From contig JACRNP010000003.1 of NCBI GenBank assembly GCA_016234845.1, positions 1 to 37,219 of the forward strand: a DNA stretch of 37,219 nt, read 5' to 3'. The DNA is from Deltaproteobacteria bacterium (GTDB taxonomy: Bacteria; Desulfobacterota; Deferrimicrobia; Deferrimicrobiales; Deferrimicrobiaceae). A program made the position numbers and the translations under genes. Positions 12,998 to 35,930 of this stretch are shown here, piece after piece. Numbering within the stretch: position 1 is the stretch's first letter; every line of letters begins with the position of its first letter. The notes below the pieces were generated by a model. The model was not told the DNA's origin. It made no database searches and saw nothing but the letters and a program-made list of their open reading frames with translations.

Positions 12998-13038
12998 CGT
13001 ACGGAGTAAACCTTATTCCATAAAGCAGAGGAAATGTG

Positions 13039-13752: not shown

Positions 13753-13784
13753 CGACCGTCCTGAACATTGCGGGATGATCGAGA

Positions 13785-16435: not shown

Positions 16436-16437
16436 CG

Positions 16438-16469: not shown

Positions 16470-16473
16470 GGAG

Positions 16474-16815
16474 CTACGGGTCTCCTCCCAGACGGCTCTT
16501 CAGCATCGCCAGCTCCTGCGCCATCTTCTTGTTCATCTGGTGGAGTTTCGAGATGGCGATCGAGAAGTGGATGAGGATCAGCAGGATGAACAGGATGCCC
16601 ACGAGGAACAGGAAGGAGGGCGGGTAGGCGATGCCCGCCATGCGGGCGAGACGGTCCAGCCAGTCCTGTTTCACCGACAGGACCAGGATCAGTGCGCTGC
16701 CGAAAAGCCAGAGGATCGAATACTCCTCGCGCAGGCGGCGGCGGCGCACCATCTCCAGGATGTAGATGAGGAGGGTGGCGGAGGCGGCGATGGAGATCAC
16801 CGTTACCCGGCTCAT
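16474..16815 (-). CDS. DUF2304 small membrane protein
   Basis: 113 residues, ATG 16815 overlapping the glycosyltransferase stop. Three hydrophobic segments (about 3-22, 33-49 and 66-88) are followed by a charged helix (LHQMNKKMAQELAMLKSRL) likely to form a coiled coil in the cytoplasm. The motif EEYSILWLFGSALILVLS is the DUF2304 signature. The family is regularly found beside DPM1-like GT2 enzymes, as here, and may help them at the membrane much as GtrA proteins do; this role is not proven. Confidence 0.85.
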   Translation of the reverse strand: MSRVTVISIAASATLLIYILEMVRRRRLREEYSILWLFGSALILVLSVKQDWLDRLARMAGIAYPPSFLFLVGILFILLILIHFSIAISKLHQMNKKMAQELAMLKSRLGGDP

Positions 16816-18914: not shown

Positions 18915-18975
18915 GCGGGCGGTTCGCGCAGTTACGCCGGCACCACAGTTCCCAGATACGCCCAAGGAGATGAAT

Positions 18976-20490: not shown

Positions 20491-20514
20491 TCCGCTTCCG
20501 ATCGCTCTTCGACG

Positions 20515-20550
20515 CCCCGCCGCGCGGTCCGGAGTGCGGCGGGGTTTTTT
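20515..20550 (+). terminator. Intrinsic terminator after the VCBS gene
   Basis: CCCCGCCGC (20515-20523) pairs perfectly with GCGGCGGGG (20536-20544), followed directly by six Ts (20545-20550). The 9-bp all-GC stem with T-run is a textbook Rho-independent terminator. It lies only 40 bp before the start of the next gene. Confidence 0.9.
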
Positions 20551-20589: not shown

Positions 20590-22005
20590 ATGAAGGGCCG
20601 ATTCCTGTTTTTTCTCCTGTCAGGTTTCATCTGCTGTTCGGAGGCGGTCGCCGCCCCCGTCGAATGGACCCGCGCGTCGATCGACGACGTCGTCTCGTGG
20701 TCCGGCGACATTCTGCTCACGCAGAGCGTCGTCGTTTCCCCGAACGGGAGACTCCGGATCCTTCCGGGAACGAGGATCCGCGTCGCCGCCGGGAAAGGGA
20801 TCTCGCTCTCCGCGTCGGGTGGACTTTCGATCGAAGGAAGCGGAGGCGATGGAACGGTTCTCTTCCTCCCGGAGAAACCCGGGGGGGCGCGGGACCAGTG
20901 GGAGGGGATTCGCCTGGTCGGCGGCGAAAGGGAGCCGGCATCGCTTACCGGTTTCCGGATCGAAGGCGCCCGGGAAGGAGTGTCCGTCTCCGAGGGCGAG
21001 GCCAGGATCCGGGACGCGGTGTTCATCGGGTGCGAAACCGGAGTCCGCGGGAACCAGAAATCCCGGGTCGTCGTCGACAACTGCCTGTTCGACGGGAACG
21101 GGGACGGGGCGGTCGTCTCCCTCGGAGGGGACGGGGTATTCCGGCGCTCCCGCTTCGCGAACATCCAGGGGAACGGGATCGTGGCCGACAAGGGGGCCTC
21201 GTTCCGCGTCACCGCCTGCGTCTTCGATCGGGGGAAGACCGGTATCTTCTCGCTGACCAACGCCCCCTGCCGGGTGGAGAGAAGCGTCTTCGCATCGCTG
21301 GAGGTCGGGGTTGTCGCCCGCCAGATGGGGAAGGACTCGACCGTCTCCCGCGCCGAATTCCGGAACAACGCCACCGGGGTTCTCGCCGTCCAGTTTTCGT
21401 CCGTGGAAGTTTCCGATTCGACGTTCCGGGAGAACAGGACGGGGGTGGACGCGAAGGAGTTCTCCTCGCCGACCGTCCGCAACAATCGGTTCGAGGCGAA
21501 CCAGGCCGCCGTCAACCTGTTCCGGAAATCGCACGCCGTTGTCGAGAAGAACGTCTTCTTCCACAACCGGGACGCCGTGGTCGTCAACTACTCCTCCTAC
21601 CCGCGGATTTCCGGAAACAACTTCGACCGGAACGACATGAGCGTGCGGCTGGAAAAGTTCCAGTCCGGGGATTGGGAGGAGCGCTCGGGTTCGAGGGAGA
21701 TCAGCGGCGGGGAGGCGAGGCAACGGGGCTCTCAGTTCGCGGCGATCGCCGGGATGCAGGGGAAGTTCCCCAAACGGGTTTTCGCGCGCGGGAACCACTG
21801 GGGGCCCGACCCGGAAAGAAATCCGGAGAAGGGAACCCTCGGGAAGATCCGCGACGGGAAGAAGTACGGGCCGGTGCGGTACGAGGGTTTCGGGGACGGC
21901 GAGTACTCGATCGACGTTGTGGATTTCTCGGAGGAGCTCCCTTCCCCGGCGCCGGACGCCGGGCCGCGGGTGGACGGTTCCGCCGTGCCTTCGGAGGCGA
22001 AATGA
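20590..22005 (+). CDS. Secreted right-handed parallel beta-helix protein
   Basis: 471 residues from ATG 20590, with AGGAG five bases upstream (a GTG at 20584 overlaps that site). A signal peptide (RFLFFLLSGFICCSEAVAA) is followed by the usual helix cap VVVSPNGRLRILPGTRIRVAAGKGISL. Then about 12 coils of 22-24 residues follow, with repeats like FRNNATGVLAVQFSSVEVSDSTFRENRTGV and NRFEANQAAVNLFRKSHAVVEKNVFF, as in NosD/DUF1565-type proteins. The end contains RGNHWGPDPERNPE and a charged, low-complexity segment. No catalytic triad of pectate lyases is evident, so a structural or binding role is likelier. First gene of the coupled envelope operon. Confidence 0.9.
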   Translation: MKGRFLFFLLSGFICCSEAVAAPVEWTRASIDDVVSWSGDILLTQSVVVSPNGRLRILPGTRIRVAAGKGISLSASGGLSIEGSGGDGTVLFLPEKPGGARDQWEGIRLVGGEREPASLTGFRIEGAREGVSVSEGEARIRDAVFIGCETGVRGNQKSRVVVDNCLFDGNGDGAVVSLGGDGVFRRSRFANIQGNGIVADKGASFRVTACVFDRGKTGIFSLTNAPCRVERSVFASLEVGVVARQMGKDSTVSRAEFRNNATGVLAVQFSSVEVSDSTFRENRTGVDAKEFSSPTVRNNRFEANQAAVNLFRKSHAVVEKNVFFHNRDAVVVNYSSYPRISGNNFDRNDMSVRLEKFQSGDWEERSGSREISGGEARQRGSQFAAIAGMQGKFPKRVFARGNHWGPDPERNPEKGTLGKIRDGKKYGPVRYEGFGDGEYSIDVVDFSEELPSPAPDAGPRVDGSAVPSEAK

Positions 22006-22967
22006 TGCATCGCAGAGCGTTCTTCCTGGCCTTCGCCTTTCTGATGTTCGGATGCGCTTCCGCCCCCCCGGCGGAACGGGGTGCGGAATCCCCGGGTTCG
22101 ATCCACACGGTCTTCCCGGGGACCCCGCCCGGACCCGCGTTGCTGCGCGCGATGGAGGAGGCGAAGACGGGGGGACCGGATAAGGTCCGTGCCCTGCTGC
22201 CGTTCTTCGACACGGAAGACAACGAGCGCCTCGTTCGATTTGTCGTGACGCTCAAGGAGAAGGCCGTGCCGCCGCTGATCGCGTCGCTCGACGACCCGTC
22301 CCCGAGGATCGTCGAGGTCGCGGCCGGGTTGCTGGGGGAACTCCGCGCGAAAGAGGCGGTGCCCCGTCTGACGGAGTTTCTCCAAAGCGATCGCCCGCTC
22401 CGGTACGTGGCGGCATGGTCGCTCGGCGAAATCAAGTCTCCGGAGTCGATCCCCGTCCTGGTGCGCGCGTTGAGCGATACCAACGAGAACGTCGCAAAAG
22501 CGGCGACCCGCGCTCTCATCAACCTGGGCAGGAAGTCCACGCCGGCGATCGTCGCGGCGCTTCCGGTCTCGTCGGGCAGGCCGAGAAAGGCGATGCTTCG
22601 GGCGCTGGAGGACATCGAGGACACCCGGGCGGAGGGAGTCGTTCTGGATGTCCTAGAGAACGAGAAGGACCCGGTCGTGCAGGCCGCCGCCGCCCGGGCG
22701 CTTTCGAAGTGCGGCACGGCGAAGGCGTTCGCACCCCTCGAGCGGTGGCTTCTGTCGGGGGATGTCGGCGTCCGCGTCGAGTGCGCCTGGTCGCTCGGGA
22801 TCCTGATCGCGAAACCGGCGGAAGGGGCGCTCCGGAAGACGCTGGAACACCCCGATCCGAACGTGCGCGAATGGTCGGCCCGCGCGCTCGAGAACATCAC
22901 CGGGGAGCGCGTCATGTACCGCAGCGCGGGCGGGAAGATGGCGCTTCCGTATAATCTTTACCGTTGA
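22002..22967 (+). CDS. HEAT-repeat lipoprotein
   Basis: 321 residues, ATG 22002 overlapping the preceding TGA (ATG 22005 also possible). The N-terminus RRAFFLAFAFLMFGC ends in a variant lipobox with Cys 18 or so, suggesting attachment to a membrane. Residues about 75-310 are alpha-helical HEAT/PBS-lyase-type repeats: KAVPPLIASLDDPSPRIVEVAAGLLGEL, EAVPRLTEFLQSDRPLRYVAAWSLGEI, ESIPVLVRALSDTNENVAKAATRALINL, and two or three more. Such solenoids mediate protein-protein contacts, so it may be the scaffold on which other products of the operon assemble. The sequence ends with YNLYR and overlaps the TTG of the permease gene. Confidence 0.9.
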   Translation: MMHRRAFFLAFAFLMFGCASAPPAERGAESPGSIHTVFPGTPPGPALLRAMEEAKTGGPDKVRALLPFFDTEDNERLVRFVVTLKEKAVPPLIASLDDPSPRIVEVAAGLLGELRAKEAVPRLTEFLQSDRPLRYVAAWSLGEIKSPESIPVLVRALSDTNENVAKAATRALINLGRKSTPAIVAALPVSSGRPRKAMLRALEDIEDTRAEGVVLDVLENEKDPVVQAAAARALSKCGTAKAFAPLERWLLSGDVGVRVECAWSLGILIAKPAEGALRKTLEHPDPNVREWSARALENITGERVMYRSAGGKMALPYNLYR

Positions 22968-23938
22968 CCTCCCTGGCGGCGGACGCGAAGGTAGTCTTCT
23001 CCCTGTTCCTCGAGCAGTCGAGGGACCTGTGGCCGTTCTATCTCGGCGGGGTGTTCTTCGCGTCCTTCATCAAGACGTTCAAGTGGGACCGGCGCGTGCG
23101 GGCCTCGCTCGTCCGGTGCGACCGCGCCGCCATTTTCGTGGCGGTCGGGGCGGGACTCATCTCCCCGCTCTGCTCCTGCGGAATCCTGCCGGTGGTGATC
23201 GCCCTCTCGGCCGCGGGTGTTCCTCTCCCCCCCGTGCTCGCGCTGCTCATCACTTCTCCGCTCATGAGTCCGGACGCGTTCCTGATCACCGTCGGACAGC
23301 TCGGGTGGACGTGGGCGCTCTGGAAGCTCGCGGCGGCGGCGCTGATCGGGCTGGCGGGAGGTTTCGGCGCGTTGTGGCTCGTCCGGAAGGGCGCTCTGGA
23401 CGGGAGCGGTTTCCAGGCGGAAAAAATGTACGATTCGCCGGGCAACGTCCGTCCCGGGTTCGAGGACATCGTCAACGCGGGCTGCTTCGCCCACGCGGGG
23501 GCGGAGGGGGGCATCGTCGATCGCGCCGGCCGTCTCCGTTTCTTCGGCGACCGATTCCGGGACATGGCGATCCTCGTCGGGAAGTTTCTTGTTCCCGCGC
23601 TCCTGCTGCAGGCCGTCATGACGTACTACCTGCCCGTGAACGTCGTCGAGCCGCTGCTCGGAAGGGAGTCGGCGCTCTCCGTGCTCTTCGCGGCGCTCAT
23701 CGCGGTCCCCATGCCTCTTCCCCAGGTGGCGGCACCGGCGCTGATCAAGTCGCTGCTCGCGGCGGGGATGAGTCCCGGGGCGGGAATGGCGATCCTGATC
23801 GGGGGGCCGGTGACGAGCATCCCGGCCCTGTCGGCACTTGCGGGCGTCTACGACCGGAGGGCGTTCGCGCTGTACGTGGGGTTGGGGGTCGCCGCTGCGG
23901 TCGCGGCGGGTGTCCTGTTCCAGGCGTGGTACGGGTGA
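22964..23938 (+). CDS. Permease of the DUF318/ArsP-SO_0444 superfamily
   Basis: 324 residues, TTG start at 22964 in a TTGA overlap with the HEAT gene. About eight membrane segments. The diagnostic C70-S-C-G73 followed by ILPVVIALSAAGVPLPPVLALLITSPLMSPDAFLI is repeated in weaker form in the C-terminal half (AVPMPLPQVAAPALIKSLLAAGMSPGAGMAILIGGPVTSIPAL). Relatives include the organoarsenical exporter ArsP and SO_0444-type putative Cu/Zn efflux proteins. The cysteine pair could bind a soft metal. A cytoplasmic loop (about 145-195) with Cys174 and His177 lies between halves. Location inside an operon of secreted proteins suggests it exports something that they use or bind; this is inference. Confidence 0.85.
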   Translation: MTSLAADAKVVFSLFLEQSRDLWPFYLGGVFFASFIKTFKWDRRVRASLVRCDRAAIFVAVGAGLISPLCSCGILPVVIALSAAGVPLPPVLALLITSPLMSPDAFLITVGQLGWTWALWKLAAAALIGLAGGFGALWLVRKGALDGSGFQAEKMYDSPGNVRPGFEDIVNAGCFAHAGAEGGIVDRAGRLRFFGDRFRDMAILVGKFLVPALLLQAVMTYYLPVNVVEPLLGRESALSVLFAALIAVPMPLPQVAAPALIKSLLAAGMSPGAGMAILIGGPVTSIPALSALAGVYDRRAFALYVGLGVAAAVAAGVLFQAWYG

Positions 23939-23982
23939 TGCGGGTCCGTGGAATCTCCATCGACGACAGGAGGGTGTTCACC

Positions 23983-24780
23983 ATGAACGAGGACCGGACC
24001 GATTCTTCCATGGGTTCCGTCGGCCGCCTTGCGAAAGCGGCGCGTTGGTTCCTTCCGATCGCGATCGCGCTGGCGTTGGCGGGCTGCGCGGGGGCAGGGG
24101 GAGGGAAGGCGGGAAGTTCCTCCCGCACCGGGGTGGCGGGCGTGATCTGCTCCCCGGCCGAAGGGGTTTACGTCTACGTCTACAAGAAGGGGGCCGACCC
24201 GTACGGCCCCGCCGACGTGATCCTTCCCGCTCCCACGTTCGCCGACGGAGCCTATTCCGTTGAGCTTCCTCCCGGGGAGTACACCCTCGTCGCCAGGCGT
24301 CGGTCGAACCAGGACAGCGCGGGACCCCTCTCGGCCGGAGACCAGCGGAGCGATCCCGTTGACGTCACGGTCGCCGCCGAAAGGGTCGCGCGCAGCAACC
24401 TGGTGCTGAACGTCAAGGAGGACTCGGAACTCCGGTCGTTCGTTCCCCCGAAGGAGTGGTCGACGATCATCGCGGGGACGGTGAAGGACGCGGACGGCAA
24501 GCCGCTCGCGGGCGCCAGGGTCCACGTCTACACGTATGTCCAGATGTCCGAGCGGCCGAAATACGTCAGCGAGCGCACGGGACCCGACGGCAGGTACGCG
24601 GTCTTCCTCCCGAAGGGGGGGACGTATTACCTTGCGGCACGGGACCGTTTCGGCGGACCGCCGAGGATCGGGGACCTCTACGGAAGGTTCGACGAGGGGT
24701 CGATCAACCCGATGGGAGTCGTGGTACGGGACGGCGAGAAGCGGGAGGGGATCGACATATCCGTGTTCCGGGTCTGGTGA
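23983..24780 (+). CDS. Lipoprotein with two GD-Y-F type beta-sandwich modules (family member 1)
   Basis: 265 residues from ATG 23983, preceded by AGGAGGG eight bases upstream; an ATG at 23938 overlaps the permease stop but would give a less typical signal peptide. Lipobox LAGC with Cys35. Two carboxypeptidase-regulatory/CNA-B-like modules follow. Module 1 (about 50-145) contains GVYVYVYKKGADPYGPA and VELPPGEYTLVARRR. Module 2 (about 162-265) contains GTVKDADGKPLAGARVHVYTY, TGPDGRYAVFLPKGGTYYLAAR, GDLYGRFDEGSINP and the C-terminal VRDGEKREGIDISVFRVW shared with its paralogs. Function unknown; modules of this fold usually stiffen or link surface proteins. Confidence 0.85.
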   Translation: MNEDRTDSSMGSVGRLAKAARWFLPIAIALALAGCAGAGGGKAGSSSRTGVAGVICSPAEGVYVYVYKKGADPYGPADVILPAPTFADGAYSVELPPGEYTLVARRRSNQDSAGPLSAGDQRSDPVDVTVAAERVARSNLVLNVKEDSELRSFVPPKEWSTIIAGTVKDADGKPLAGARVHVYTYVQMSERPKYVSERTGPDGRYAVFLPKGGTYYLAARDRFGGPPRIGDLYGRFDEGSINPMGVVVRDGEKREGIDISVFRVW

Positions 24781-25913
24781 GATCGTCGGCCGATTCCGCC
24801 CGGCGGCGAATCCTCCTTCCGGTCGCGGGATTCCTGATCCTTGCGCTCGGGTCGTGTTCGCACGCGCAGCGGAAGGGTGGTCCGGATGCCGGGGGAGCCG
24901 GTGCGCCATCGGTCCGGACGGTCGTGCACGTCCGTGTGACCTGGCGCGAGGATCCGCTTCCGGATGCCCGGGTCGGGCTTCTCCGTTCGATCGGTGGAAC
25001 CGCCGTCGCGATCGCACGTACGGACGCGGAGGGGCGCGCGGCGTTCGACCTGTCCCCGGGCCGGTATTTCCTCGTCGCCGAGTGGCGAAGGGACTCCGAT
25101 TACGGAAGACCGATCTCCGCCGGGGACCGGTACGCGTATTTCGGCGGGAACCCCGTGTTCGTCGGCGGGGCGGGGGAGTCCCGGGAGATCTTCGTCGGGA
25201 CCGAGGAGTTCGCCGCACCTCCCGGCCAGGACGGGGAACCGGCCGGAGGGACGGGAGTCGCCGGAAGGGTGACCTCCGGGGGAGCCCCGGTGGAGGGCGC
25301 GCACGTGTTCGCCTATCTCCGGACCGACTCCGCCTTCCGGGACCTCGGGTTCGCGGCCTCCGCGCCCACCGCGTCGGACGGCTCCTTCGTCATGGAACTG
25401 CCCCCCGGGGAGTATCATGTCCTCGTCCGGAAACGTTCCGGCGGCGGTGTCGCCGGCCCGATGCGGAAGGGCGACCTGTTCGGCTACTATCCCGCCAACC
25501 CCGTATCCGTCCGTTCCGGCGGGTTCGCCAGGGTCTCGATTCCCGCCACCCTGCTGAAACTCCGCAACGTTCCGACGTACTCGCGGGATGCGCGGGCGAC
25601 GGCGTCCGTCGAGGGGAGGATCCTCGGGGCCGACGGAAAGCCGCGGGCGGGCGTGTACGCCGCGCTCTACGACAACCCCGACCTTCTCAATCGCCCGGTG
25701 CTCCTGTCCGACGTGACCGGGGCGGACGGACGGTACCGTCTTCCCGTGCCCGTTCCGGGGAAATATTTCCTCGGGGCGAGGAGCGGATACGGCGGATCGC
25801 CGTCCCCCGGGGACTATTACGGAAGGTTCGAGGGGAACGCGGACCACTCCGTTACGCTTCGGGAGGGCGACCGTCTCACCGGGGTGGACATCACCGTGAA
25901 CGAGGTCTGGTGA
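24777..25913 (+). CDS. Lipoprotein with three beta-sandwich modules (family member 2)
   Basis: 378 residues from GTG 24777 (GTGA overlap). Lipobox LGSC, Cys27. Three modules: about 40-130 (WREDPLPDARVGLLR...GDRYAYFGGNPVFV), 155-250 (GGAPVEGAHVFAYLR...MELPPGEYHVLVRKR...GDLFGYYPANPVSV) and 270-378 (LGADGKPRAGVYAALYDN...VPGKYFLGARSGYGGSP...GDYYGRFEGNADHSV...GVDITVNEVW). The first two end with a G-x-NPV motif, the last with DHSV. That order recurs in members 3 to 5. It is followed one base later by the spermidine-synthase-like gene. Confidence 0.85.
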   Translation: MRSSADSARRRILLPVAGFLILALGSCSHAQRKGGPDAGGAGAPSVRTVVHVRVTWREDPLPDARVGLLRSIGGTAVAIARTDAEGRAAFDLSPGRYFLVAEWRRDSDYGRPISAGDRYAYFGGNPVFVGGAGESREIFVGTEEFAAPPGQDGEPAGGTGVAGRVTSGGAPVEGAHVFAYLRTDSAFRDLGFAASAPTASDGSFVMELPPGEYHVLVRKRSGGGVAGPMRKGDLFGYYPANPVSVRSGGFARVSIPATLLKLRNVPTYSRDARATASVEGRILGADGKPRAGVYAALYDNPDLLNRPVLLSDVTGADGRYRLPVPVPGKYFLGARSGYGGSPSPGDYYGRFEGNADHSVTLREGDRLTGVDITVNEVW

Positions 25914-25914
25914 C

Positions 25915-28308
25915 GTGGCGGTCTTTCTCGCGGCGGCGGGGGTTCTCGCGTTCGAAGTCCTCCTGACCCGGGTTTTCTCCGTGGTGGCCTGGTACCACTT
26001 CGCGTCGATGGCGATCGCCGTAGCCATGTTCGGCCTCTCGGCGGGCGGGCTTCTCCCCTATCTGCTGCGGAAGTCCGGCAGGCTCCCCGCCGGATTTTCC
26101 GGGATCCCGCCGTCGCTGGGCGCAGCTCTTGCCGGGATGTCCGCGCTCGTGACCGCGGCGCCGTACATCGTCCTTCTCCTGTTCCGGCGATACCCCCTCT
26201 GGGCCGGCCGCCTCCTGTCCGTGTTCCACCAGCCGTACTACGAGCCGTTCCGGGCGGCGGCGCAGGCCGCTCCCGCATCGGACGCCGCCCAGATCGGGAT
26301 CCTGCTGCTCCTGTTCTCCCTGCCGTTCGTGGGCGCAGGGGCCATCTTCGCCCTTGCGTTCGCGGGGAAGGGAAACGAGGGGGAAACGTATCTCCACGTG
26401 ATGGGCGGCTCCGCCGCGGGCGTTGTCGCGTACCTGCTGGCCATGCGCGCGGGCTCCGGCCCGGCCGCGTTTCCCTTCGTCGCGGCGCTGTTCGCCCTGT
26501 CCGCGGCCGCGTTCTCCCTTCGCCGCGGGAGCGGACGCCGCGCCGCACCGGTGATCGCTTTCGCGGGGGCCGCGGCGCTCCTCGCGCTCGGGTTCCTGGA
26601 GGCGCGATACGGGTTCGCGGAGATCCGGTTCGCCCGGGGGCGGTTCGAACCCGGCATGCTGTGGACCCGTTGGGACGCCGTCTCGCGGGTCGCCGCGTAT
26701 CCGGTGTCCGGGGAGGAGTCGTCGAAGGCGTGGGGGGTAAGCCCCGCGTACACGGGGCCGGTGCCGGAGCAGGTCGGGATGGTCGTGGACGACACCGGAT
26801 ACACGGCCCTCTTCGGGGTGGGGAAGGAGCCGGATACGCTGGACGCCTTCCGGTGGAACGTGGCGTCCGCCGCGTACCACGTCCGGCCCGGGGCGTCCGC
26901 GCTGATCATCGGCCCTGGAGGAGGGAAGGATATCCTGTGCGCGTTGTCGTCGTCGGCCCGCTCGGTGACCGCCGTGGAGATGAATCCGCTCGTCGTGCAG
27001 GCGGCCGGCGAGGCGTTCGGGGAATTCACCGGGAATCCGTACGCGATGAAAAGCGTCCGGACGGTGATCGCCGAGGGGAGGAATTTCCTCGCGTCCGACC
27101 GGGAGAGGTATGACGTCCTTCAGATGACGCAGGTCTTCGGCCGCGTCCCCCCTTCCGCCGGCGCGTTCACGATGACCGAGGACCACCTCCACACGGAGGA
27201 GGCGTTCCGGTCGTACCTCGCCCATCTCCCCGACGACGGGATCCTGACGATCACCCGGTTCATCCACGAACGCCGCGTCTGGCGGCTCCTTTCCCTGTCC
27301 CGCGGCGCCCTCGCCCGTCTCGGTTCCGCCGATCCGTCGCGCCACGTGGCGGCGGTACGCGACAGGGGATTGATCAACATCATGGTCCGGCGGACGCCGT
27401 GGACGGACAAGGACCTGGCCGCGCTCCGCGGGTTCTCGGAATCGATGGGATTCCCGATCCTGTTCGCGCCCGATCGGCCGGCGGCCGGGCTTCCCGGCAG
27501 GATTCTTTCGGGGGAGGAGGGGCGCGAGGCGGGCGCGTTCGACTACTCCGCCCCTTCCGACGACCGTCCCTTCTACTACTACACGTTGCGGCCGGGATCC
27601 TTCCTGTCGCCCGCCGGCATGAAGTCGGGGGAGTTCGACGACAGGGCGGTGTCGATGCTGCGCGGATTCCTTCTCTCCGCCGGGATCCTCTGCGCGATAT
27701 TCCTCGTCGCGCCCGGGGCGCTGCTTTCACGGGGGGGTGCCGCCCGGCCCGGGATCGCGGCCCCGGCATACATGTTCCTCGTGGGGCTCGCGTTCATCGT
27801 CTGGGAGATCGTGATGATCAAGCGTCTCGCGCTCCTGTTCGGGGCGCCGGTGCTCTCCCTCGCGGTGGGGCTGCTGTTGATCCTGCTGTTTTCCGGAGCG
27901 GGAGGATTCCTGTCCGAGCGCGCCGTCCCGGGAGACCGGACGCGGTGGCTCCCCGGGGCGGCGATCGCGGCGACCGCGTACCTTTTCTTCTGCGGGCCGG
28001 AACTCGTCCGTTTCGCCGGGGCCGGGCTCCCCGCTCGCGTCGCGGTGGCTGCGGCGTACGTCCTTCCCCCGTCGATCCTGATGGGGATATTCTTCCCGGC
28101 CGGCCTGCGCAGGTACTCCTCCCCGGATTCGGGAACGACCCCGTTCCTCTTCGCCGCCAACGGCGCCGCTTCGGTCCTCGGCGCCGCGCTGACGCAGGCG
28201 CTCACGCTGAACATCGGGTACGGAGCGACCACCCTGGCGGGCGGGGTCGCGTATGCGCTGGGCGCGGCGGCGCTCGCCACCCCCGGAAAGGGGGAGGGGC
28301 TGGAATGA
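25915..28308 (+). CDS. Integral membrane protein with spermidine-synthase-like domain
   Basis: 797 residues, GTG 25915. About six to eight membrane segments occupy residues 1-230 (LAAAGVLAFEVLLTRVFSVVAWYH first). A class I methyltransferase/aminopropyltransferase fold follows at about 285-470: SALIIGPGGGKDILCAL (nucleotide loop), AVEMNPLVV (ribose-binding acidic residue Glu355), and AEGRNFLASDRERYDVLQM. A further five or six segments follow from about 580 to 790. This three-part plan occurs in bacterial 'spermine/spermidine synthase domain' membrane proteins of unknown chemistry. The typical catalytic Asp motif of soluble SpeE (D-x-x-D-P) is not seen; the position reads QMTQVFG. It may use SAM or decarboxylated SAM to modify something at the membrane. 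Confidence 0.85.
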   Translation: MAVFLAAAGVLAFEVLLTRVFSVVAWYHFASMAIAVAMFGLSAGGLLPYLLRKSGRLPAGFSGIPPSLGAALAGMSALVTAAPYIVLLLFRRYPLWAGRLLSVFHQPYYEPFRAAAQAAPASDAAQIGILLLLFSLPFVGAGAIFALAFAGKGNEGETYLHVMGGSAAGVVAYLLAMRAGSGPAAFPFVAALFALSAAAFSLRRGSGRRAAPVIAFAGAAALLALGFLEARYGFAEIRFARGRFEPGMLWTRWDAVSRVAAYPVSGEESSKAWGVSPAYTGPVPEQVGMVVDDTGYTALFGVGKEPDTLDAFRWNVASAAYHVRPGASALIIGPGGGKDILCALSSSARSVTAVEMNPLVVQAAGEAFGEFTGNPYAMKSVRTVIAEGRNFLASDRERYDVLQMTQVFGRVPPSAGAFTMTEDHLHTEEAFRSYLAHLPDDGILTITRFIHERRVWRLLSLSRGALARLGSADPSRHVAAVRDRGLINIMVRRTPWTDKDLAALRGFSESMGFPILFAPDRPAAGLPGRILSGEEGREAGAFDYSAPSDDRPFYYYTLRPGSFLSPAGMKSGEFDDRAVSMLRGFLLSAGILCAIFLVAPGALLSRGGAARPGIAAPAYMFLVGLAFIVWEIVMIKRLALLFGAPVLSLAVGLLLILLFSGAGGFLSERAVPGDRTRWLPGAAIAATAYLFFCGPELVRFAGAGLPARVAVAAAYVLPPSILMGIFFPAGLRRYSSPDSGTTPFLFAANGAASVLGAALTQALTLNIGYGATTLAGGVAYALGAAALATPGKGEGLE

Positions 28309-29396
28309 CGCCGCGTTCCGGCCTCTTCCGAACGATCGCATCGCGGATTGCGGCGGTCTCGGTCCTCCTGCTGGCCGTCGCCTGCTCCCCCCGGCAAGGA
28401 ACGGTGGAGGGTGTGGCGTCGATCGACGACGCGCCGGCGGCGGGTGCGGAGATCCAGGCGTTCGTGAAGGCTGGCGCGGAGCGGTCGGGGACGCCGTTTG
28501 CAACGGGCGCCGCCCGGGAGGACGGATTCTTCTCGCTCCCGCTCCCGCCGGGAAGCTACCACCTCGTGGCGCGCAGGACCGTCCGCGCGGAGGGGCGGGA
28601 CCGGACGTACAAGGCGGAATACTCCGGGAACCCGGTTCGCGTGTCGGGCGGCGAAACCGTGAAGGGAATTTCCTTCGCTCTCGTCGAAATGTCGTCCGGC
28701 GGATTCGTCCCGCGCCGGGGGACCGGCGTGACCGGCGCCGTAGTGATCGACGGGAAGCCGGCGAAGGGGGTGTACGTGTACGCCTACCCCGACAACGTCG
28801 GCACGGTCCGGGGCCCCTCGTACGCGGCCTTCGCGCGCGCGGGCGAGGATGGACGGTTCCGCATCGTCCTCCGGGAGGGAGCATTCCGCATCGTCGCAAG
28901 GGAGAAGGGCGGAGAGAACGAGACCGGCGCCATGTCTTCGTCCGGGAAGACGGGAGGGGACGAGGGGATCCCGGTCCGTCTCGAACCCGGATCCACCCGC
29001 GACCTGGGGAGGATCGCACTGCGCTCCCCGGACGAGGGGAAGCGGAGGCGGCGCGCCGCCGGAGGCGGGCAGGCGGCGCCGGCGGCGGAGATCCGCGGCG
29101 CCGCGGTCCGGGAGGACGGTTCCCCCGCTCCCGGGGTATACGTGATGGCGTACGCGGACCACCGGATGATCGGACGGCCATTCGCCATCTCGGGAAGGAC
29201 GGGGACCGACGGAGCGTTTATCCTGAAATTTCCGAAACCGGGGAAGTACTTCCTCGGCGCCAGGGGAGAGTACGGCGGTCCCGTCTCTCCCGGGGAACCG
29301 GTCGGGATGTTCGATGGATCGCCGGACCACGGGGTCCTGGTGCGCGACGGGGAACGGCTCGAGGGGATCCGGATCCGGGTGGCGGAGAAGTGGTGA
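28305..29396 (+). CDS. Lipoprotein with three beta-sandwich modules (family member 3)
   Basis: 363 residues from ATG 28305 (ATGA overlap). Lipobox LAVAC with Cys27. Modules: about 32-130 (GVASIDDAPAAGAEIQAFV...[12 protein letters not shown]...YSGNPVRV), 142-235 (GVTGAVVIDGKPAKGVYVYAYPDN...) and 262-363 ([67 protein letters not shown]). Module 2 has lost the NPV ending and continues into a basic stretch (KRRRRAAGGGQA) before module 3. The C-terminal signature is intact. Its stop overlaps the GTG start of the next beta-helix gene. Confidence 0.85.
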   Translation: MTPRSGLFRTIASRIAAVSVLLLAVACSPRQGTVEGVASIDDAPAAGAEIQAFVKAGAERSGTPFATGAAREDGFFSLPLPPGSYHLVARRTVRAEGRDRTYKAEYSGNPVRVSGGETVKGISFALVEMSSGGFVPRRGTGVTGAVVIDGKPAKGVYVYAYPDNVGTVRGPSYAAFARAGEDGRFRIVLREGAFRIVAREKGGENETGAMSSSGKTGGDEGIPVRLEPGSTRDLGRIALRSPDEGKRRRRAAGGGQAAPAAEIRGAAVREDGSPAPGVYVMAYADHRMIGRPFAISGRTGTDGAFILKFPKPGKYFLGARGEYGGPVSPGEPVGMFDGSPDHGVLVRDGERLEGIRIRVAEKW

Positions 29397-30607
29397 GGGA
29401 GGCGAACATCGCCCCGCTCCCCCTGGCGCTCGCCGTGGCGGTGCTGCTCTCGATGGCCGCCGCGTTCCCGGGCCACGGGAAGGAGATCGCGGGGAATCGG
29501 ACGTATTCGGGAGATCTGGTCGTCCCCAGGGGGGAGACGTGGAAGGTGCTCCCGGGCGCGGAGATCCGGTTCCGTGGAGGGAGGTGGATCGTTCGCGGGA
29601 CCCTGATCGTCGAGGGGACGGAGGCGAACCCAGTCCGCATCGTCGGAGACGACGCGTTCGACGGGCTCGACGTGCGCGGAGAGGCCGACGCCAGGTTCCG
29701 GCACGCCGTTCTCTCGGGCGGCAGGCGAGGGGCGCAGCTGACCGGCGCGGCGGCCGGATTCCGGGAGGTCCGCTTCGAGGGGAACGGGGTCGGGCTCGAC
29801 GTCGGGCAGTACGCCAGGGTCCGGGTCGACCGGTGCGTATTCGAGGGGAACGCACGGGTCGGGGTGCTGGTCAAGCGCGGCGGCGCCGCGGAGATCGCAG
29901 GGAGCCGCTTCTCGGGGGCGGGGAAAGCGGGCGTATACGCGTACGGCGCCGACAACGTGTCGCTTCGCGACTGCCGGTTCGAGCGAAACGGAACGGGTCT
30001 CCTCGCGGGGATGGCGGGCGCGCGCGTCCGGGTCGCGAAGTCGGTCTTCCACGCGAACGGCGTCGGGATCCTCGCGGAGAAGACGGCGGCGCCCGAGGTG
30101 TCGGGATCCGAGGTCACGGGGAACGGCACGGGATTCCTGTTCACCCGAAGGGCGGAAGGGACCGTCTCCGGATGCCGCATCGAGGGGAACGGAACCGGCG
30201 CGCGGGTGGAGTTCTCCTCCTACCCCGTGTTCCGGGGGAACGTCTTCCGGGGGAACCGGGATGCGGCGGTGCATCTGCGGCACCAGTCGTCGGAGTGGGA
30301 AGGCGAGGCGACGGAAGGGGACCGGGACGGCGCGTCGGGTCCGGGGGCGCCGTTCGGGCCCGGCGGCGGGTCGCGCGGAGATTTCCGGCCGCGGGATGGC
30401 GCCGGGGGGACGGCATCGAAGGGAGGTCCTCCCGGGAAGAGGGGGGGGCTGACCGGTACGGTGGATTTCCGCGGGAACGACTGGGGTGAGTCGCAGCCCC
30501 AGGTGGACGCGGGTGGAAGCGTGACCGGGATCCGCGACGGGCGCGTGGAGCCGTACTTCGAATACAGGGGGAGGAGGTACCGGATGGACACGGTGCTGCT
30601 GAAATGA
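29393..30607 (+). CDS. Secreted parallel beta-helix protein (second)
   Basis: 404 residues from GTG 29393 (GTGA overlap). A signal peptide ([21 protein letters not shown]) precedes the helix cap [38 protein letters not shown]. About ten coils follow, e.g. [26 protein letters not shown] and [33 protein letters not shown] Gly/Arg/Asp-rich linker (about 300-355) then leads to a C-terminal strand with [11 protein letters not shown]. The architecture matches the protein at 20590: cap, coils, charged linker, GN-x-WG tail. The two are probably paralogs. Role unknown, likely surface or periplasmic scaffold. Confidence 0.88.
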
Positions 30608-31665
30608 GGCGCTTCGCGCCGCTCCTCCTCTGCCTGTTGTGCCTCGCGGAAGGTTCCAGCGCCGCCGATTTCACCGGCGTGCGGGGGCGGGTCGCCCTCA
30701 AGGGCGAGGTGATCCCGGGGGTCGTCGTGTTCGCCTTCGGCGATTTCGGAAAGGGGATTGCCGGCCACGCGGCGGCGCGGTCGGCGGGGACGAACGCGGA
30801 AGGGATCTACGAGCTGTCCCTTCCGCCCGGGAGCTACCACCTGGTCGCCGCGAAAACCGCGTCCGCGTCGCTTGCCGGGGTGAAGGAAGGGGACCTCTTC
30901 TGCTTCTACGGGGGGAACCCGGTCCGGGTCGAACAGGATCGGGCAACCAACGTGGGGTTCAACCTGGTCCGGGTCGGGAGCGACCCGCCATCCGACATGC
31001 CGTACGGTGTGGAGGGTACGGTGTTCGACGAGAACGGGGTTCCGCTCGCCGGCGCGACCGTCTACTTCTACGAATCCCCTGCGGGCGGATTCAAGGGAAT
31101 CCCGGGGTTCTTCGCGCGGACCGGGCAGGACGGCACCTTCCGGGCGCGACTGAAGAAAGGGACATTCTTCGCCGTGGCGCGCAAGCGCGAATCGGGGGAC
31201 CTGTTCGGCCCGACGCAGGTGGGAGACCGCTTCGCCTACTACGTCCGGAACCCGATCACGCTTCCGGAGGGCGGGGGCGCGAAAGGGATCCGGCTGGACG
31301 CGGTCCGCCGCCTGTCGATGCTGGAGACGTTCGAGGGAATTCCGGCGTCGTCCCGGGGGATCCCGCTCCGTGTCCGTGTCGTAGATCCGGCCGGGAAACC
31401 GGTTGCCGGCGTCCGCGTTCTCGCGTACCCCAACCGGGAGATGTTCGGCCACCCGGCGTACGTGTCCGGCAAGAGCGGAGCGGACGGGTTGGCGGAATTC
31501 ACCGTCGCCGAAGAAGGGACGTTCCACCTCCTCGCGCGGGAAAACCTGGGCGGTCCGGCCGAAGGGGAGTTGTACGGCAAATACGCGGGCACGAAGGACC
31601 ACTCCGTCGAGGTGACGCGCGAAGGAGCGCCGGGGGCGTTCGAAATCGTGGTGGAGCGGAAATGA
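30604..31665 (+). CDS. Secreted protein with three beta-sandwich modules (family member 4)
   Basis: 353 residues, ATG 30604 (ATGA overlap). The N-terminal signal [19 protein letters not shown] fits cleavage by signal peptidase I and has no lipobox, so unlike its paralogs this one is probably soluble in the periplasm or secreted. Modules: about 24-120 ([44 protein letters not shown]), 133-235 ([44 protein letters not shown]) and 253-353 ([50 protein letters not shown]). All three modules preserve the family endings, making it the cleanest example. Confidence 0.86.
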
Positions 31666-32750
31666 GATCGAGCCTGTCCGCCCGCGCCCGGATTCTGGCG
31701 GTATCCGCGTCGTGCCTGCTGGTCGTTTCCTGCGCCGGCGCGCCGCCGGCGAGGGAGGCCCCGGTGCTTTCCGGGAGGGTCACTTTCCGCGGCGCGCCGG
31801 TACCCGGGGCCGTGGTGACGCTTCTCCGGACGTACGACCCGGCCGGCAAATCCGCGAGTCCATCGGTACGATCGTCGGGTGACGGAGGATTCCGGGCGGA
31901 AGTGCGGCCGGGGAGCTATTACGTGGTGGCGGAAGGCGCGTACGAGGGCGCCCCGGTGTTCGCCTTCTCCGGGCAGAACCCGGTGCGCCTCGAGTCCGGG
32001 TCGCGGTGGCTCGGGATGAAGGCGGTCCCGGCGGAAATTCCGGCGATGCTGCCCGGGAAGCCGGGGCGAGGCGCCGTGGCCGCCGGAGAGCTTGTCTTTC
32101 GCGGGGCGCCCGTGGAAAACGCATACGTGTACGTCTATTCCTCCCCGGACTCGCTCTTCAAGGGGATGGGAATGGCGATGAGCGCCCCCACGGGCCCGGG
32201 TGGGACGTTCGAGATCGAGAACCTTCCCGAGTCCACGTACTATCTCGTGGCGAGGAGACGCGGGGAAGGGGGGATGACCGGTCCGCTGGAGAAGGGGGAC
32301 CTGTACGGGTTCTACCCGGGGAACCCTGTATATTTGAAGGATGCGACGGTGACCCGCCTGCGGCTGGAGCTGGTGGAAAAGGAGAAGGAGCTGGCCTACT
32401 CCGAGGTGACGTCGGGGACGGAGACCGTGCTGCGGGGGAAGGTGGTCGACCGGACCGGCAGGCCGCAGGCGGGAGTGTACGCGTTCGTGTACGACGACCG
32501 CGTCTTCGGGCACCAGCGCCCGTACGGCCATTCCGGGCGGACCGGCCCGGACGGGTCGTTCGCCATCTACCTGGACCGGCCCGGAACGTTCTACCTGGGC
32601 GCGCGGGAGCGGTTCGGCGACTCGCCCCGGCCCGGCGAGCGGTTCGGGTTCTACGACGGCACGCCGGACCACGCGGTGTCGGCCGTCGCGGGGATCGCCC
32701 GGGAAGGGTTGACGGTCGTGGTCGAGCCGATCCTTCCGGAGGGGAAGTGA
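31662..32750 (+). CDS. Lipoprotein with three beta-sandwich modules (family member 5)
   Basis: 362 residues, ATG 31662 (ATGA overlap). Lipobox VVSC with Cys24. Modules: about 35-125 ([41 protein letters not shown]), 140-240 ([52 protein letters not shown]) and 262-355 ([50 protein letters not shown]). Module 2 is strikingly similar to module 2 of member 2. Stop overlaps the GTG of a beta-helix lipoprotein. Confidence 0.86.
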
Positions 32751-33640
32751 CACCGCGCCGCGCCGCCCGCATCCTTCCCATCCTCCTCGCCTGCGGAATC
32801 GCCGCGTGCGCCGGGGCGGGGAAGATGCCGGGGGGGAGGCTCCCGGCCGACGGGATCGCCCTGCCGATCCGCGGGCTCGCGGGCGACGAGACGTGGAGCG
32901 GCGAAGTCCGCATCCGGGGGTCGGTCGTCGTCCCCCGCGGGGTCACGCTGACGATCGCGCCGGGCACCGTCGTCCGCTTCGAGAGGATCGACGTGGATGG
33001 AGACGGAATCGGCGATTCGGAGCTGTACGTCGAGGGGAACCTCCTGGCCGAGGGGACGCCGGGGAGTCCGATCCGGTTCACGTCGGCGGAGAGGAATCCG
33101 TCCCCGCGCGACTGGAAGTACCTGTTCGTCAACCTGAGCCGCAGGACGGTCCTCTCCCGGTGCGTGTCCGAGTACGCGTTCTCGGGAATCCAGATCCACT
33201 TCTCCCGCGCCACCGTCACCCGCTCCGTTTTCCGCCGGTGCGTGGACGGGTTCCGCTTCTCGACCGCGGAAGGGGTCTTCTCCAGGAACCGGATGACGGA
33301 GAACGTGTACGGGGTCCGTTACGAGGAGCGCAACTCCACCGCGACCCTGTCGCGCAACGTCATCACGGGGAACAAGGTCGGGATCTTCTGCGTGATGGAG
33401 TCGACGGGGAAGGTGGCGATCCGGGAGAACCGGATCCACGGGAACGCCGACTACGACTTCAAGCTGGGAAACCGCCAGCGGGCGGACATCCCGGCGGCGG
33501 GGAACTGGTGGGGTACGACCGACCCCGCCGCGATCCGCGCGCGGATCTTCGACCGGGGGGTGGAACCCGACCTCGGAGTAGTCCTCTTCGAGCCGTTCCT
33601 CGCGGCGCCGCCGCCGGACGACGGCGGGTACGGGACGTGA
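32747..33640 (+). CDS. Beta-helix lipoprotein (third)
   Basis: 297 residues from GTG 32747 (GTGA overlap). Lipobox IAAC at about residue 21. The cap is ETWSGEVRIRGSVVVPRGVTLTIAPGTVVRFERIDVDGDGIGDSELYVEGNLLAEG, including a DVDGDGIGD loop that looks Ca2+-binding. Coils such as FRRCVDGFRFSTAEGVFSRNRMTEN and LSRNVITGNKVGIFCVMESTG follow. The tail GNWWGTTDPAAIRARIFDRG...LGVVLFEPFL is typical of NosD-like beta-helix proteins. It differs from the two larger proteins in being membrane-anchored and shorter. Confidence 0.88.
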   Translation: MTPRRAARILPILLACGIAACAGAGKMPGGRLPADGIALPIRGLAGDETWSGEVRIRGSVVVPRGVTLTIAPGTVVRFERIDVDGDGIGDSELYVEGNLLAEGTPGSPIRFTSAERNPSPRDWKYLFVNLSRRTVLSRCVSEYAFSGIQIHFSRATVTRSVFRRCVDGFRFSTAEGVFSRNRMTENVYGVRYEERNSTATLSRNVITGNKVGIFCVMESTGKVAIRENRIHGNADYDFKLGNRQRADIPAAGNWWGTTDPAAIRARIFDRGVEPDLGVVLFEPFLAAPPPDDGGYGT

Positions 33641-34092
33641 CGGTCCGGCGGCTCGTCGTGTTCTCCGTGTTCTGGCTCGGACTGGTCCTGGCCGTGCCCC
33701 GGACGCCGGAGGCGCACCCCAACGCGCGGTTCCTGCGCGGGGACATCACCGTGTCGACGTCGTGGGAGGGAGTGATCCGCCTCACGGGTACCGTGGTGAT
33801 CCGGGAGGGCGTCACGGTGACGGTGGATCCGGGCACGGAGATTCTCGTCCAGCCGGGGGAGGGAACGGACATCGAGGTCCGCGGGAGGCTGCTGGTGCGC
33901 GGCATTCCGGAAAAACCGGTCCTGTTCGACACGGCGGGAGGGTGCGCGGCCGGTTCCTGGGGCGGGATCCGTTTCCGTCCGGGGAGCACGGGAACGTTCG
34001 AGAACGTGCGGATCCGCTGCTCCGCGGCGGGAGTGGCCGGGGAAACATCCGGCGTGACGAAGAAGGGCGTTACGCTCGAGGCGGGGCGGTGA
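33637..34092 (+). CDS. Short beta-helix cap protein (fourth)
   Basis: 151 residues from GTG 33637 (GTGA overlap). A signal peptide (RRLVVFSVFWLGLVLAVPRTPEAH) is followed by TSWEGVIRLTGTVVIREGVTVTVDPGTEILV, IEVRGRLLVRGIPEKPVLFD and GSWGGIRFRPGSTGTFENVRIRC. This is the N-terminal cap and first two coils of a beta-helix protein, then it stops. It has no GN-x-WG tail. It may be a truncated gene or an independent small protein that caps or nucleates the larger helices. No disrupted coding remnant is visible downstream, which favours a genuine short protein. Confidence 0.78.
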   Translation: MTVRRLVVFSVFWLGLVLAVPRTPEAHPNARFLRGDITVSTSWEGVIRLTGTVVIREGVTVTVDPGTEILVQPGEGTDIEVRGRLLVRGIPEKPVLFDTAGGCAAGSWGGIRFRPGSTGTFENVRIRCSAAGVAGETSGVTKKGVTLEAGR

Positions 34093-34106
34093 GGTGAAGT
34101 GAGAAC

Positions 34107-35075
34107 ATGCTGATCCTGTCCCCCGCCGACAAGGCGTCGGAGGTCCCCGCGCTCGTATCCGCCGGCGCGGAGGAGTTGTACGCCGGTTACGTCCCGCCGT
34201 ACTGGTCCGATGCGTTCGGACCGGTCGTCTCCTGCAACCGGCGCAGCTACGAGGAGGCGAACGCCGGCTCCCTAGATGAGCTGTTCGCCCTCGTCCACCA
34301 GGCGGCGGTGCTCGACGTCCCCGTCCACGTAGCCCTGAACGCTTCGCCGATCCCGGACGACATGATCCCGCCGCTGGTCGGGACGGCGGGGGAGCTTGCC
34401 GCGGGAGGGGTTCGTGGAGTGATCGTCTCGGACCTCGCGTTGCTGCTCTCCTTGCGGGATGCGAAGTTCCGGCGGCTGTCGCTGCACGCCAGCACGCTGT
34501 TTTCGGCCTTCAACGGGATGACGGTCGCGTTTCTCCGCAGGGCGGGGGCGGACCGGGTGATCCTGGCCCGGGAGCTTTCCACGGCCGATATCGCCGCCAT
34601 GGCGCCGCTCGCGGGGGAGGCGCGCCTCGAAGTCATCGGATTCCGCGGGCGGTGCCCCAACATCGAGGGGTTCTGCACCCACCTGCACGACGATCCGGGC
34701 CGGAGCTGGCCGTGCGAGCTGTCGTACGAAAAGGAGTGGCGCGGGGAGGGGGAAGCGGCGCCCGCGGGCGTCCTGGACGCCATCGCACGGAACGAGGGGG
34801 TCGACCGGTTCCACTCGTGCGGGCTGTGCGCCGTCCCGCTCCTCGAGCGCGCCGGGGTCCACTCCCTGAAGATCGTCGGCAGAGGCGCGGAGACGTCGCG
34901 CAAGGTCGACGCGGTCCGCGCCGTCGCCGCGATGCGGGAGTGGGGGAGGGCGAACATCCCCGACGCGTCGGCGTGCGCCCGCCGGGGGAAGGATCTTTAC
35001 CGGGAAATCTTCGGCCGCCCGTGCCGCCCGGAAAACTGCTACTTCCCCGAGTTCCGCCCGGGAGAGGTGCGATGA
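34107..35075 (+). CDS. U32 family protein, UbiU-like
   Basis: 322 residues, ATG 34107 after GAGGTGA, 14 bp behind the last envelope gene. The TIM-barrel start MLILSPADKASEVPALVSAGAEELYAGY and LHASTLFSAFN are typical of peptidase U32 family proteins. Cysteines C183-x6-C190-x12-C203 plus C238/C241 resemble the four [4Fe-4S] ligands of E. coli UbiU (first two six residues apart). More cysteines (C290, C306, C311) follow. UbiU-type proteins are not peptidases but take part in oxygen-independent hydroxylation, with prephenate as oxygen source in ubiquinone synthesis. Whether this one hydroxylates, and what, is unknown. Coupled to the next gene (ATGA). Confidence 0.82.
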   Translation: MLILSPADKASEVPALVSAGAEELYAGYVPPYWSDAFGPVVSCNRRSYEEANAGSLDELFALVHQAAVLDVPVHVALNASPIPDDMIPPLVGTAGELAAGGVRGVIVSDLALLLSLRDAKFRRLSLHASTLFSAFNGMTVAFLRRAGADRVILARELSTADIAAMAPLAGEARLEVIGFRGRCPNIEGFCTHLHDDPGRSWPCELSYEKEWRGEGEAAPAGVLDAIARNEGVDRFHSCGLCAVPLLERAGVHSLKIVGRGAETSRKVDAVRAVAAMREWGRANIPDASACARRGKDLYREIFGRPCRPENCYFPEFRPGEVR

Positions 35076-35836
35076 GAGAATATCGGTATCTCGGCCCGGA
35101 CGGGGAGGGGATCGCGGAATTGCCGGTCGGGGCCGGGGGGGCGATGGGGAGCGAATATTGCGTCCACCTGCTGCCGACGGCGGCGCGGATGGCGGAGGCG
35201 GCCTCCGAGGCGTCGGCGAGGAGCGCCCCTCTGCTGCTCCTCACCCCGTACTTCCGGGACGCGGAACTGAAGCGGACTCTTCCGCTCTTCCGCGCGATCC
35301 CGCCCGGGGCGGACGTCGACGTCGCTGTGAACGACTGGGGGCTCCTCCAGACGCTCCACGGACTGTTCCCGCGGATGCGGCTGTCGGTCGGCCGGCTGCT
35401 CTCCGGGCAGAAGCGGTGCCCGCGGATCGGCTCATCCCCACGGCTCACGGAGGAGGGGAGGAAGTGGCACGGCGAGGGGATCTTCTCCTCGCCCCGCGCG
35501 CGGGATTTTCTCGAGGGGGAGATGGGCGTCACGGGGTACCACCTCGACGCGCTCCCCTGGACCCGGGGAGTCCGTCCGGCGCCGGAGGATGCCGAGTTCT
35601 TCGTCCACCAACCGTACTCGATCGTGACGGTGACGGACGCCTGCCCGTGGATCGGCGGGATGTCGTCATCGCTGCTCCCGTCCTGCCCACGGCCGTGCAG
35701 GGAAGGTTGCGTGGTCCTGAAGGAGCCTTCGATGGGCGAGGGGCTGCTCCAGCGGGGAAAGGCGCGGTTCGCGGCGGCCTCGGAACCGGTTTCCGCAGGC
35801 CGGATGACCCGTGTCCGCTACGGGAACCTGCCGTAG
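35072..35836 (+). CDS. U32-related iron-sulfur protein, UbiV-like partner
   Basis: 254 residues, ATG 35072 overlapping the UbiU-like stop. It has a shorter barrel-like fold with VDVAVNDWGLLQTLHGLFP, matching the VVND-x-G strand motif of U32 proteins. Cysteines C30, C191, C205, C209 and C213 are placed much like the UbiV cluster ligands (one early Cys, then a later group ending C-x3-C). Extra C116 and the CPRPCREGC segment exceed the usual four. Together with the previous gene it forms a UbiU/UbiV-like heterodimer candidate. No UbiT (SCP2) or ubiquinone gene is nearby, so the substrate may lie in the envelope operon. Confidence 0.72.
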   Translation: MREYRYLGPDGEGIAELPVGAGGAMGSEYCVHLLPTAARMAEAASEASARSAPLLLLTPYFRDAELKRTLPLFRAIPPGADVDVAVNDWGLLQTLHGLFPRMRLSVGRLLSGQKRCPRIGSSPRLTEEGRKWHGEGIFSSPRARDFLEGEMGVTGYHLDALPWTRGVRPAPEDAEFFVHQPYSIVTVTDACPWIGGMSSSLLPSCPRPCREGCVVLKEPSMGEGLLQRGKARFAAASEPVSAGRMTRVRYGNLP

Positions 35837-35901: not shown

Positions 35902-35930
35902 TAGTGGATACACTTTCGCCGGAGCGTCCA

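Follow-up and report, generated by a model that had tools for sequence, protein, structure and literature searches.

The DNA analysed here, called the window, is the entire contig C3 (37,219 nucleotides) of the 2.53 Mb draft genome G000; its relatives carry codes of the same kind, such as G001 and G010. Positions 20590-35836 hold 14 co-directional genes, which we named bh1, heat, perm, mod1, mod2, spe, mod3, bh2, mod4, mod5, bh3, bh4, u32a and u32b. At 10 of the 13 gene junctions the neighbors share a 4-bp overlap (ATGA, GTGA or TTGA). The perm/mod1 junction is a 1-bp overlap or a 44-bp gap, depending on the mod1 start, and gaps of 1 bp and 14 bp separate mod2 from spe and bh4 from u32a. An earlier note, made from the sequence of the window, had described a tightly joined operon of thirteen genes; the operon is real and tightly joined, with one gene more than that count. 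The note had also taken the close junctions to imply stoichiometric co-production, which the overlaps may indicate. A strong terminator-like hairpin closes the upstream FG-GAP gene, so the operon probably starts at bh1. The locus itself runs past the operon on both sides.

The operon products comprise four beta-helix or beta-helix-like proteins, one HEAT lipoprotein, five CarboxypepD_reg proteins, one ArsP_1 permease, one SpeE-like protein and a UbiU/V-like pair. A Pfam search found Beta_helix or NosD-like domains in bh1, bh2 and bh3, CarboxypepD_reg in all five mod proteins, HEAT in heat, ArsP_1 in perm and Peptidase_U32 in u32a; it gave no match for bh4 or u32b and only a weak methyltransferase-fold match for spe. 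Ten of the 14 products have a signal peptide or lipobox, the others being perm, spe, u32a and u32b. These results bear out the earlier note, which had counted nine or ten exported products, had listed the same four exceptions and had seen mostly scaffold proteins among the products.

The operon is one half of a larger, repeatedly conserved set that travels with GeoRSP, a cassette of three maturase genes, and with giant many-haem proteins. The other half lies on contig C12 of the same genome. The first 122 bases of C12 are identical to the end of the window and lie inside a small OpuAC-like gene, and the join is supported by G001, in which both halves are on one contig in the same order. The first part of C12 encodes a ResB-like/beta-helix fusion, a DUF362 protein, a mod/beta-helix fusion of 1069 amino acids, a PhnD-like binding protein, a tetratricopeptide repeat protein, YedE and a second ArsP-type permease. 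Next come PqqD, a radical S-adenosylmethionine (SAM)/SPASM protein, a SPASM protein, an extracytoplasmic function (ECF) sigma factor, an anti-sigma factor and a 200-residue protein, and then cytochromes with 18, 3, 43, 17 and 22 CXXCH motifs. The radical SAM/SPASM protein (C12 10021-11025) scores 412.6 bits, above the cut-off of 400 for the GeoRSP model TIGR04303. For the adjoining PqqD, GeoRSP TIGR04302 is the best match at 49.7 bits, below its cut-off of 100; for the adjacent SPASM protein it is GeoRSP TIGR04304 at 102.4 bits, below its cut-off of 300. YedE (C12 7577-8653) reaches 304.5 bits with the selenium-transporter model TIGR04112 (cut-off 200), and a weak selenate-binding match was obtained for the PhnD-like protein. 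The short ResB-like proteins have in common a single transmembrane His that never varies, together with an N-x-P motif; the copy in G024 scores 25.2 bits against a cut-off of 24.6. C12 also encodes a 768-residue protein with bacterial Ig-like domains. The operon is indeed a conserved set, and the earlier note had missed the larger locus, which continues on another contig with GeoRSP and giant multihaem cytochromes.

Two further features of C12 were noted. The stretch between GeoRSP and the first giant cytochrome (C12 12032-14061) encodes the ECF sigma factor, a zinc-finger anti-sigma factor with a CBM48-like domain and the 200-residue exported protein, and it was also seen in G010, G001 and G011. 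After the cytochrome block, C12 38773-41280 encodes a second, divergent SpeE-like membrane protein (835 amino acids), with a counterpart at the equivalent place in G010 (L171).

Conservation was surveyed in 395 genomes of the phylum, from 104 families. Genes in the other genomes were called with a simple codon-bias caller, with which some starts and small genes will be wrong and which yielded none in three regions (G172 L087, G145 L160 and G050 L113). A profile of spe orthologs scored above 870 bits in 19 genomes and at most 472 bits in all others; G016 is a twentieth carrier. Twenty genomes, from eight families, have the gene set, either whole or split over several loci. G010 keeps the gene order, and so does G024, which belongs to another family and shows ~40% identity; in G016 the order can be followed as far as the contig end, although some genes are inserted or relocated. 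With the order kept in these three genomes, the operon arrangement is more than chance. The series spe-mod3-(bh2)-mod4-(bh1)-mod5-bh3 is conserved in other families, and spe-mod3-mod4-mod5-bh3 is found in most neighborhoods read, usually with bh1 or bh2. Most neighborhoods also have mod1-heat with an iron-sulfur membrane protein and an EB_dh haem-binding-type protein, nearby or divergent. Some lineages have a separate locus of AAA, perm, mod2, a mod/beta-helix fusion, an OpuAC-like gene, DUF362 and a polyferredoxin, and a further locus of GeoRSP, the PhnD-like gene and YedE. Whether the parts lie together or apart therefore differs between genomes. The core consists of spe, mod3, mod4, mod5 and bh3; the UbiU/V-like pair and mod2 are limited to part of the distribution and hence are not core. 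The genes do belong together, as the earlier note had proposed: the neighborhood comparison did not show homologs scattered with no conserved association.

The polyferredoxin, X514, has 28 conserved Cys and recurs in the loci with DUF362; haem-binding EB_dh-type proteins recur there too. Its gene sits between bh3 and bh4 in G010 and is missing there in the window; a diverged polyferredoxin (46% to X514) lies outside the locus, on contig C37 of G000 (14108-15553). In the GeoRSP loci of G302, G087 and G174 (L118, L119 and L115), a NicO-like transporter with a 180-residue partner seems to replace the ArsP permease.

Among the 395 genomes, 35 carry bh3 homologs, 27 the GeoRSP radical SAM gene (21 of them above the curated cut-off) and 31 the family PF09698, the Geobacter CX4CH...CXXCH cytochrome motif. 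Co-occurrence was evaluated with hypergeometric P values on genome-level and family-level counts, which ignore the tree within families. GeoRSP is present in 18 of the 19 spe genomes (P 1.5e-23), and in the sole exception, G024, the contig ends beside YedE. All 27 GeoRSP genomes have bh3, and 24 of them have PF09698 (P 4.4e-29), which is also present in 16 of the 19 spe genomes. With the 104 families as the unit, the overlap is 11 of 11 for GeoRSP and PF09698 (P 3.5e-13) and 7 of 8 for spe and GeoRSP (P 1.2e-7). The general multihaem family PF14522 occurs in 216 of 297 genomes, so owning multihaem cytochromes does not alone explain the co-occurrence.

Giant cytochrome genes are enriched near the loci. 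Genes with at least 8 CXXCH motifs account for 9.1% of the bases in 39 system regions, compared with 0.3% in 20 arbitrary regions of carrier genomes, which were placed by hand at round coordinates with no random generator; 15 other bh3-homolog loci contained no such gene. The largest cytochromes at the system regions have 34, 43 and 57 CXXCH motifs. Lineages differ in this respect: such cytochromes commonly adjoin the loci in some and never do so in others. Each of the four large C12 cytochromes has one to eight CX4CH motifs, versus none in 20,267 residues of non-cytochrome locus proteins. C12 17374-17991 (L105) encodes a 205-residue lipoprotein in which three CXXCH motifs come after a CarboxypepD_reg (mod)-like domain, the final one at the extreme C-terminus. 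This predicted mod-haem fusion is a direct link, at the level of sequence, between the operon and cytochrome halves. Cytochromes with up to 43 haems were reported in the iron-reducing group MBNT15 (PMC9386147); the 43-haem gene on C12 fits the size reported for that group, of which G000 may or may not be a member. In G243 (L094, L095 and L196 joined, 36150-44252), a cytochrome of 2700 amino acids with 57 CXXCH and 8 CX4CH motifs adjoins the spe operon.

Table 1. Features of the window from the TlpA-like pair to the contig end.
Feature	Position	Strand	Evidence and remarks
TlpA-like thioredoxin 2	17507..18058	-	Pfam AhpC-TSA/Redoxin; adjoins FG-GAP gene also in G010, G016, G024, G001
TlpA-like thioredoxin 1	18109..18654	-	Pfam; position conserved
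FG-GAP/UnbV_ASPIC beta-propeller secreted protein (CRTAC)	18970..20490	+	Pfam; adjoins spe in G046, G241, G338, G355, G196
Terminator-like hairpin with T tract, between CRTAC and operon	20514..20545	+	
bh1, secreted parallel beta-helix protein	20590..22005	+	PF13229, 99 bits; orthologs in 13 other genomes
heat, HEAT-repeat lipoprotein	22002..22967	+	Pfam HEAT_2; orthologs in 12 other genomes
perm, ArsP_1-type permease	22964..23938	+	PF03773, 122.9 bits (cut-off 32.3); conservation
mod1, CarboxypepD_reg lipoprotein	23938..24780 (alternative start 23983)	+	Pfam; lipobox Cys kept in 13 orthologs
mod2, CarboxypepD_reg lipoprotein, three modules	24777..25913	+	Pfam
spe, membrane protein, central spermidine-synthase-like SAM fold, catalytic DxxD absent	25915..28308	+	Profile against PDB
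mod3, CarboxypepD_reg lipoprotein	28305..29396	+	Pfam; 16 orthologs
bh2, secreted beta-helix protein	29393..30607	+	Pfam
mod4, secreted CarboxypepD_reg protein	30604..31665	+	Pfam; 16 orthologs
mod5, CarboxypepD_reg lipoprotein	31662..32750	+	Pfam; 13 orthologs; low-confidence all-beta model
bh3, beta-helix lipoprotein	32747..33640	+	Pfam; homolog in 27/27 GeoRSP genomes
bh4, short secreted protein, half beta-helix-like	33637..34092	+	Orthologs in G010, G001, G024
u32a, U32 (UbiU-like) protein, conserved cysteines	34107..35075	+	PF01136, 79.9 bits; conservation
u32b, partner of u32a, conserved Cys set	35072..35836	+	No family match
AAA+ ATPase	35910..36809	+	Pfam AAA; equivalent position in G024, G010, G001
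Periplasmic OpuAC-like protein, 5' part, rest on contig C12	36824..37219	+	122-bp exact overlap with C12

In a profile search against PDB sequences, the similarity of spe to spermidine synthases is limited to their Rossmann part (28.9 bits). A YDVLQMTQVFGR-like sequence stands where these enzymes have the catalytic YDVxxxDxxDP, and both Asp are absent in all seven orthologs; a glycine-rich GPGGGKD motif and the acidic residue of an AVE motif are retained. The curated polyamine aminopropyltransferase model gives 20.6 bits against a cut-off of 260. Judging from these motifs, spe is a predicted SAM-type fold that lacks the aminopropyltransferase active site. Polyamine synthesis by spe was rejected, since the catalytic aspartates are missing from all orthologs. 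AlphaFold models built from two or three input sequences had low confidence (mean predicted local distance difference test score 41 for spe and 57 for mod5) and were unusable for fold comparison.

In perm, C70-x-C72 and M101 are conserved, and bh3 has a conserved calcium-type loop, DxDxDGxGD. The scaffold proteins conserve the lipobox Cys and a few single residues, and otherwise showed no active-site-like sets of conserved Cys or His. A conserved His near the likely mature N-terminus of bh4 and two conserved Cys were noted as a possible metal or haem ligand. Cys183, Cys190, Cys203 and Cys238 of u32a and Cys30, Cys116, Cys191, Cys205 and Cys209 of u32b are conserved in the four sequences from four genomes and are candidate ligands for a 4Fe-4S cluster in each partner. 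u32a had no match among PDB sequences and scores 46.8 bits with the UbiU model NF047963 (cut-off 440), which u32b does not match. A UbiU/V ubiquinone pathway is unsupported, and the pair is confined to G000, G010, G001 and G024 among the loci read. The OpuAC-like exported proteins, in the window and in relatives, share a Cys-Val-Gly where the signal peptide is predicted to end, and no ABC transporter genes adjoin them. Upstream of the TlpA pair, window positions 1-17500 include polysaccharide-type glycosyltransferase genes and other cell-surface genes.

The conserved set probably works as a machine by which electron-carrying proteins are built or held at the cell surface. More specifically, and with little more than even confidence, we favor an envelope machine that, jointly with the GeoRSP cassette, matures giant CX4CH...CXXCH multihaem c-type cytochromes, holds them at the outer surface and connects them electrically. 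This proposal draws on the gene set with its conserved order and core, its continuation on C12, the co-occurrence of spe, GeoRSP, bh3 and PF09698, the local enrichment of giant haem genes, their CX4CH motifs, the mod-haem fusion and the recurrent polyferredoxin, DUF362 and EB_dh proteins; the link to haem itself comes from neighborhood and co-occurrence. In the proposed machine, spe, the ResB-like protein with its transmembrane His, the TlpA-like thioredoxins, the polyferredoxin and the UbiU/V-like pair would perform redox and cofactor steps at or inside the inner membrane. The scaffold to which the cytochromes dock would reach from the periplasm to the outer surface and consist of the beta-helix, HEAT, FG-GAP and CarboxypepD_reg (lipo)proteins. 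The ArsP- and YedE-type transporters may carry metal, sulfur or selenium species that are required for, or released by, the cofactor. We infer these biochemical steps and locations, and likewise extracellular electron transfer as the purpose. The earlier note had proposed an envelope complex, the UbiU/V-like pair among its parts, with its own maturation or export step; maturation is plausible, and the pair, found in part of the distribution only, is not core. A narrower version, which we regard as possible and rather doubtful, is a dedicated biogenesis pathway: the radical SAM/PqqD cassette would install a peptide or haem modification, and the scaffold of beta-helix and transthyretin-like modules around the membrane SAM-fold protein would assemble the product on the surface, as a new maturation and display class in many families.

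Several observations weigh against a machine for giant cytochromes. A cytochrome with at least 8 haems is found in only 10 of the 39 sampled system regions, and in lineages such as f46, f23 and f24 the spe and GeoRSP loci read have no large cytochrome nearby. GeoRSP is absent from 7 of the 31 PF09698 genomes, and PF09698, at the threshold used, from three GeoRSP genomes. The canonical cytochrome c assembly genes are located elsewhere in the genome, and no porin was identified. The co-occurrence could result from an iron-reducer lifestyle or from shared horizontal transfer, and a metal or selenium role would account for YedE and the permeases just as well.

The chief rival, which we consider unlikely, is a system for handling a metal, sulfur or selenium. 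The product of GeoRSP would be a small modified peptide or cofactor. The element would be transported by YedE, the ArsP permeases and the binding-like proteins and bound or stored in the envelope by the beta-helix and CarboxypepD_reg proteins, and the cytochromes would be mere neighbors in iron reducers. The YedE score above the curated selenium-transporter cut-off and the weak selenate-binding match of the PhnD-like protein are consistent with this explanation, as are the CxC and Met of perm, a kind of motif expected of a metal(loid) permease, and the apparent replacement of perm by a NicO-like gene, judged by eye, in Geobacter-like loci. PqqD normally binds a peptide, and this usual partner also agrees with it. 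Against it stand the local abundance of giant haem genes, the PF09698 association and the polyferredoxin, DUF362, ResB-like and EB_dh partners.

In a further rival, which is improbable, the beta-helix and transthyretin-like modules would form a surface layer or a scaffold for adhesion that has no redox role and lies beside redox genes by chance or common regulation. The export of 10 of the 14 products, their mostly repeat or beta-sandwich folds, the Ig-like protein on C12 and the adjacent polysaccharide genes would suit such a layer, whereas cytoplasmic and inner-membrane partners conserved across families (spe, AAA+, the permease and GeoRSP) and the mod-haem fusion would not. At least as improbable is lineage hitchhiking, in which iron reducers would have received the block whole, by descent or by transfer, and its parts would have separate functions. 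The hypergeometric counts ignore phylogeny and the set is split over several loci in some families, both of which leave room for hitchhiking; yet all parts are kept despite the split loci, and this, together with the family-level association, argues for a functional tie.

The association described here offers GeoRSP a partner set and a hypothesis for its target, and it bears on how cytochromes of 20-57 haems are matured and held at the surface. It also points to a recurrent envelope module that is overlooked when its genes are annotated singly as beta-helix, HEAT or carboxypeptidase-like.

The assembly has partial counterparts among known systems. The C12 cassette is GeoRSP (NCBIfam TIGR04302, TIGR04303 and TIGR04304: PqqD-like, radical SAM/SPASM and SPASM), with the radical SAM protein above and the PqqD and SPASM proteins under their curated cut-offs. 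The earlier note had not recognized any described system. This holds for the 14 operon genes, which are outside the GeoRSP models, while the larger locus partly matches NCBIfam GeoRSP and YedE. A search of the open-licence literature found no description of GeoRSP, its target or the present assembly, and the whole set may be described in subscription papers, which that search did not cover. The SAM-type fold of spe is common to spermidine synthases (PDB 1uir and 1inl), which have the catalytic DxxD that spe lacks. u32a has the U32 family in common with UbiU/UbiV, and the cysteine pattern of u32a and u32b may correspond to theirs; u32a is far below the UbiU cut-off. The NosD cluster for nitrous oxide reductase maturation likewise places a periplasmic beta-helix protein beside redox and iron-sulfur membrane proteins; such a role was rejected here, as bh1 (40.8 bits) and bh3 (18 bits) score far under the TIGR04247 cut-off of 300. 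With System II (ResB/ResC, ResA/TlpA), the locus shares a short ResB-like protein with an invariant transmembrane His and two TlpA-like thioredoxins. Unlike in System II, the ResB-like protein is shortened and, in G000, fused to a beta-helix, and the locus has no ResC/CcsA, the PF01578 genes being on other contigs. Porin-cytochrome conduits (OmcB-type, Ext and OetABI) are associated with extracellular electron transfer in the same broad bacterial group; in contrast to them, the operon products show no porin or cytochrome by Pfam, and the cytochromes come only downstream, on C12. In Geobacter, the eight-gene block GSU2500-GSU2493 has been linked to maturation and secretion of the OmcS nanowire (PMC12977616, citing the primary work), so cytochrome-assembly blocks are an already known kind. 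This osc-type block resembles the present set in kind, as a multi-gene block reportedly tied to maturation and secretion of a surface cytochrome.

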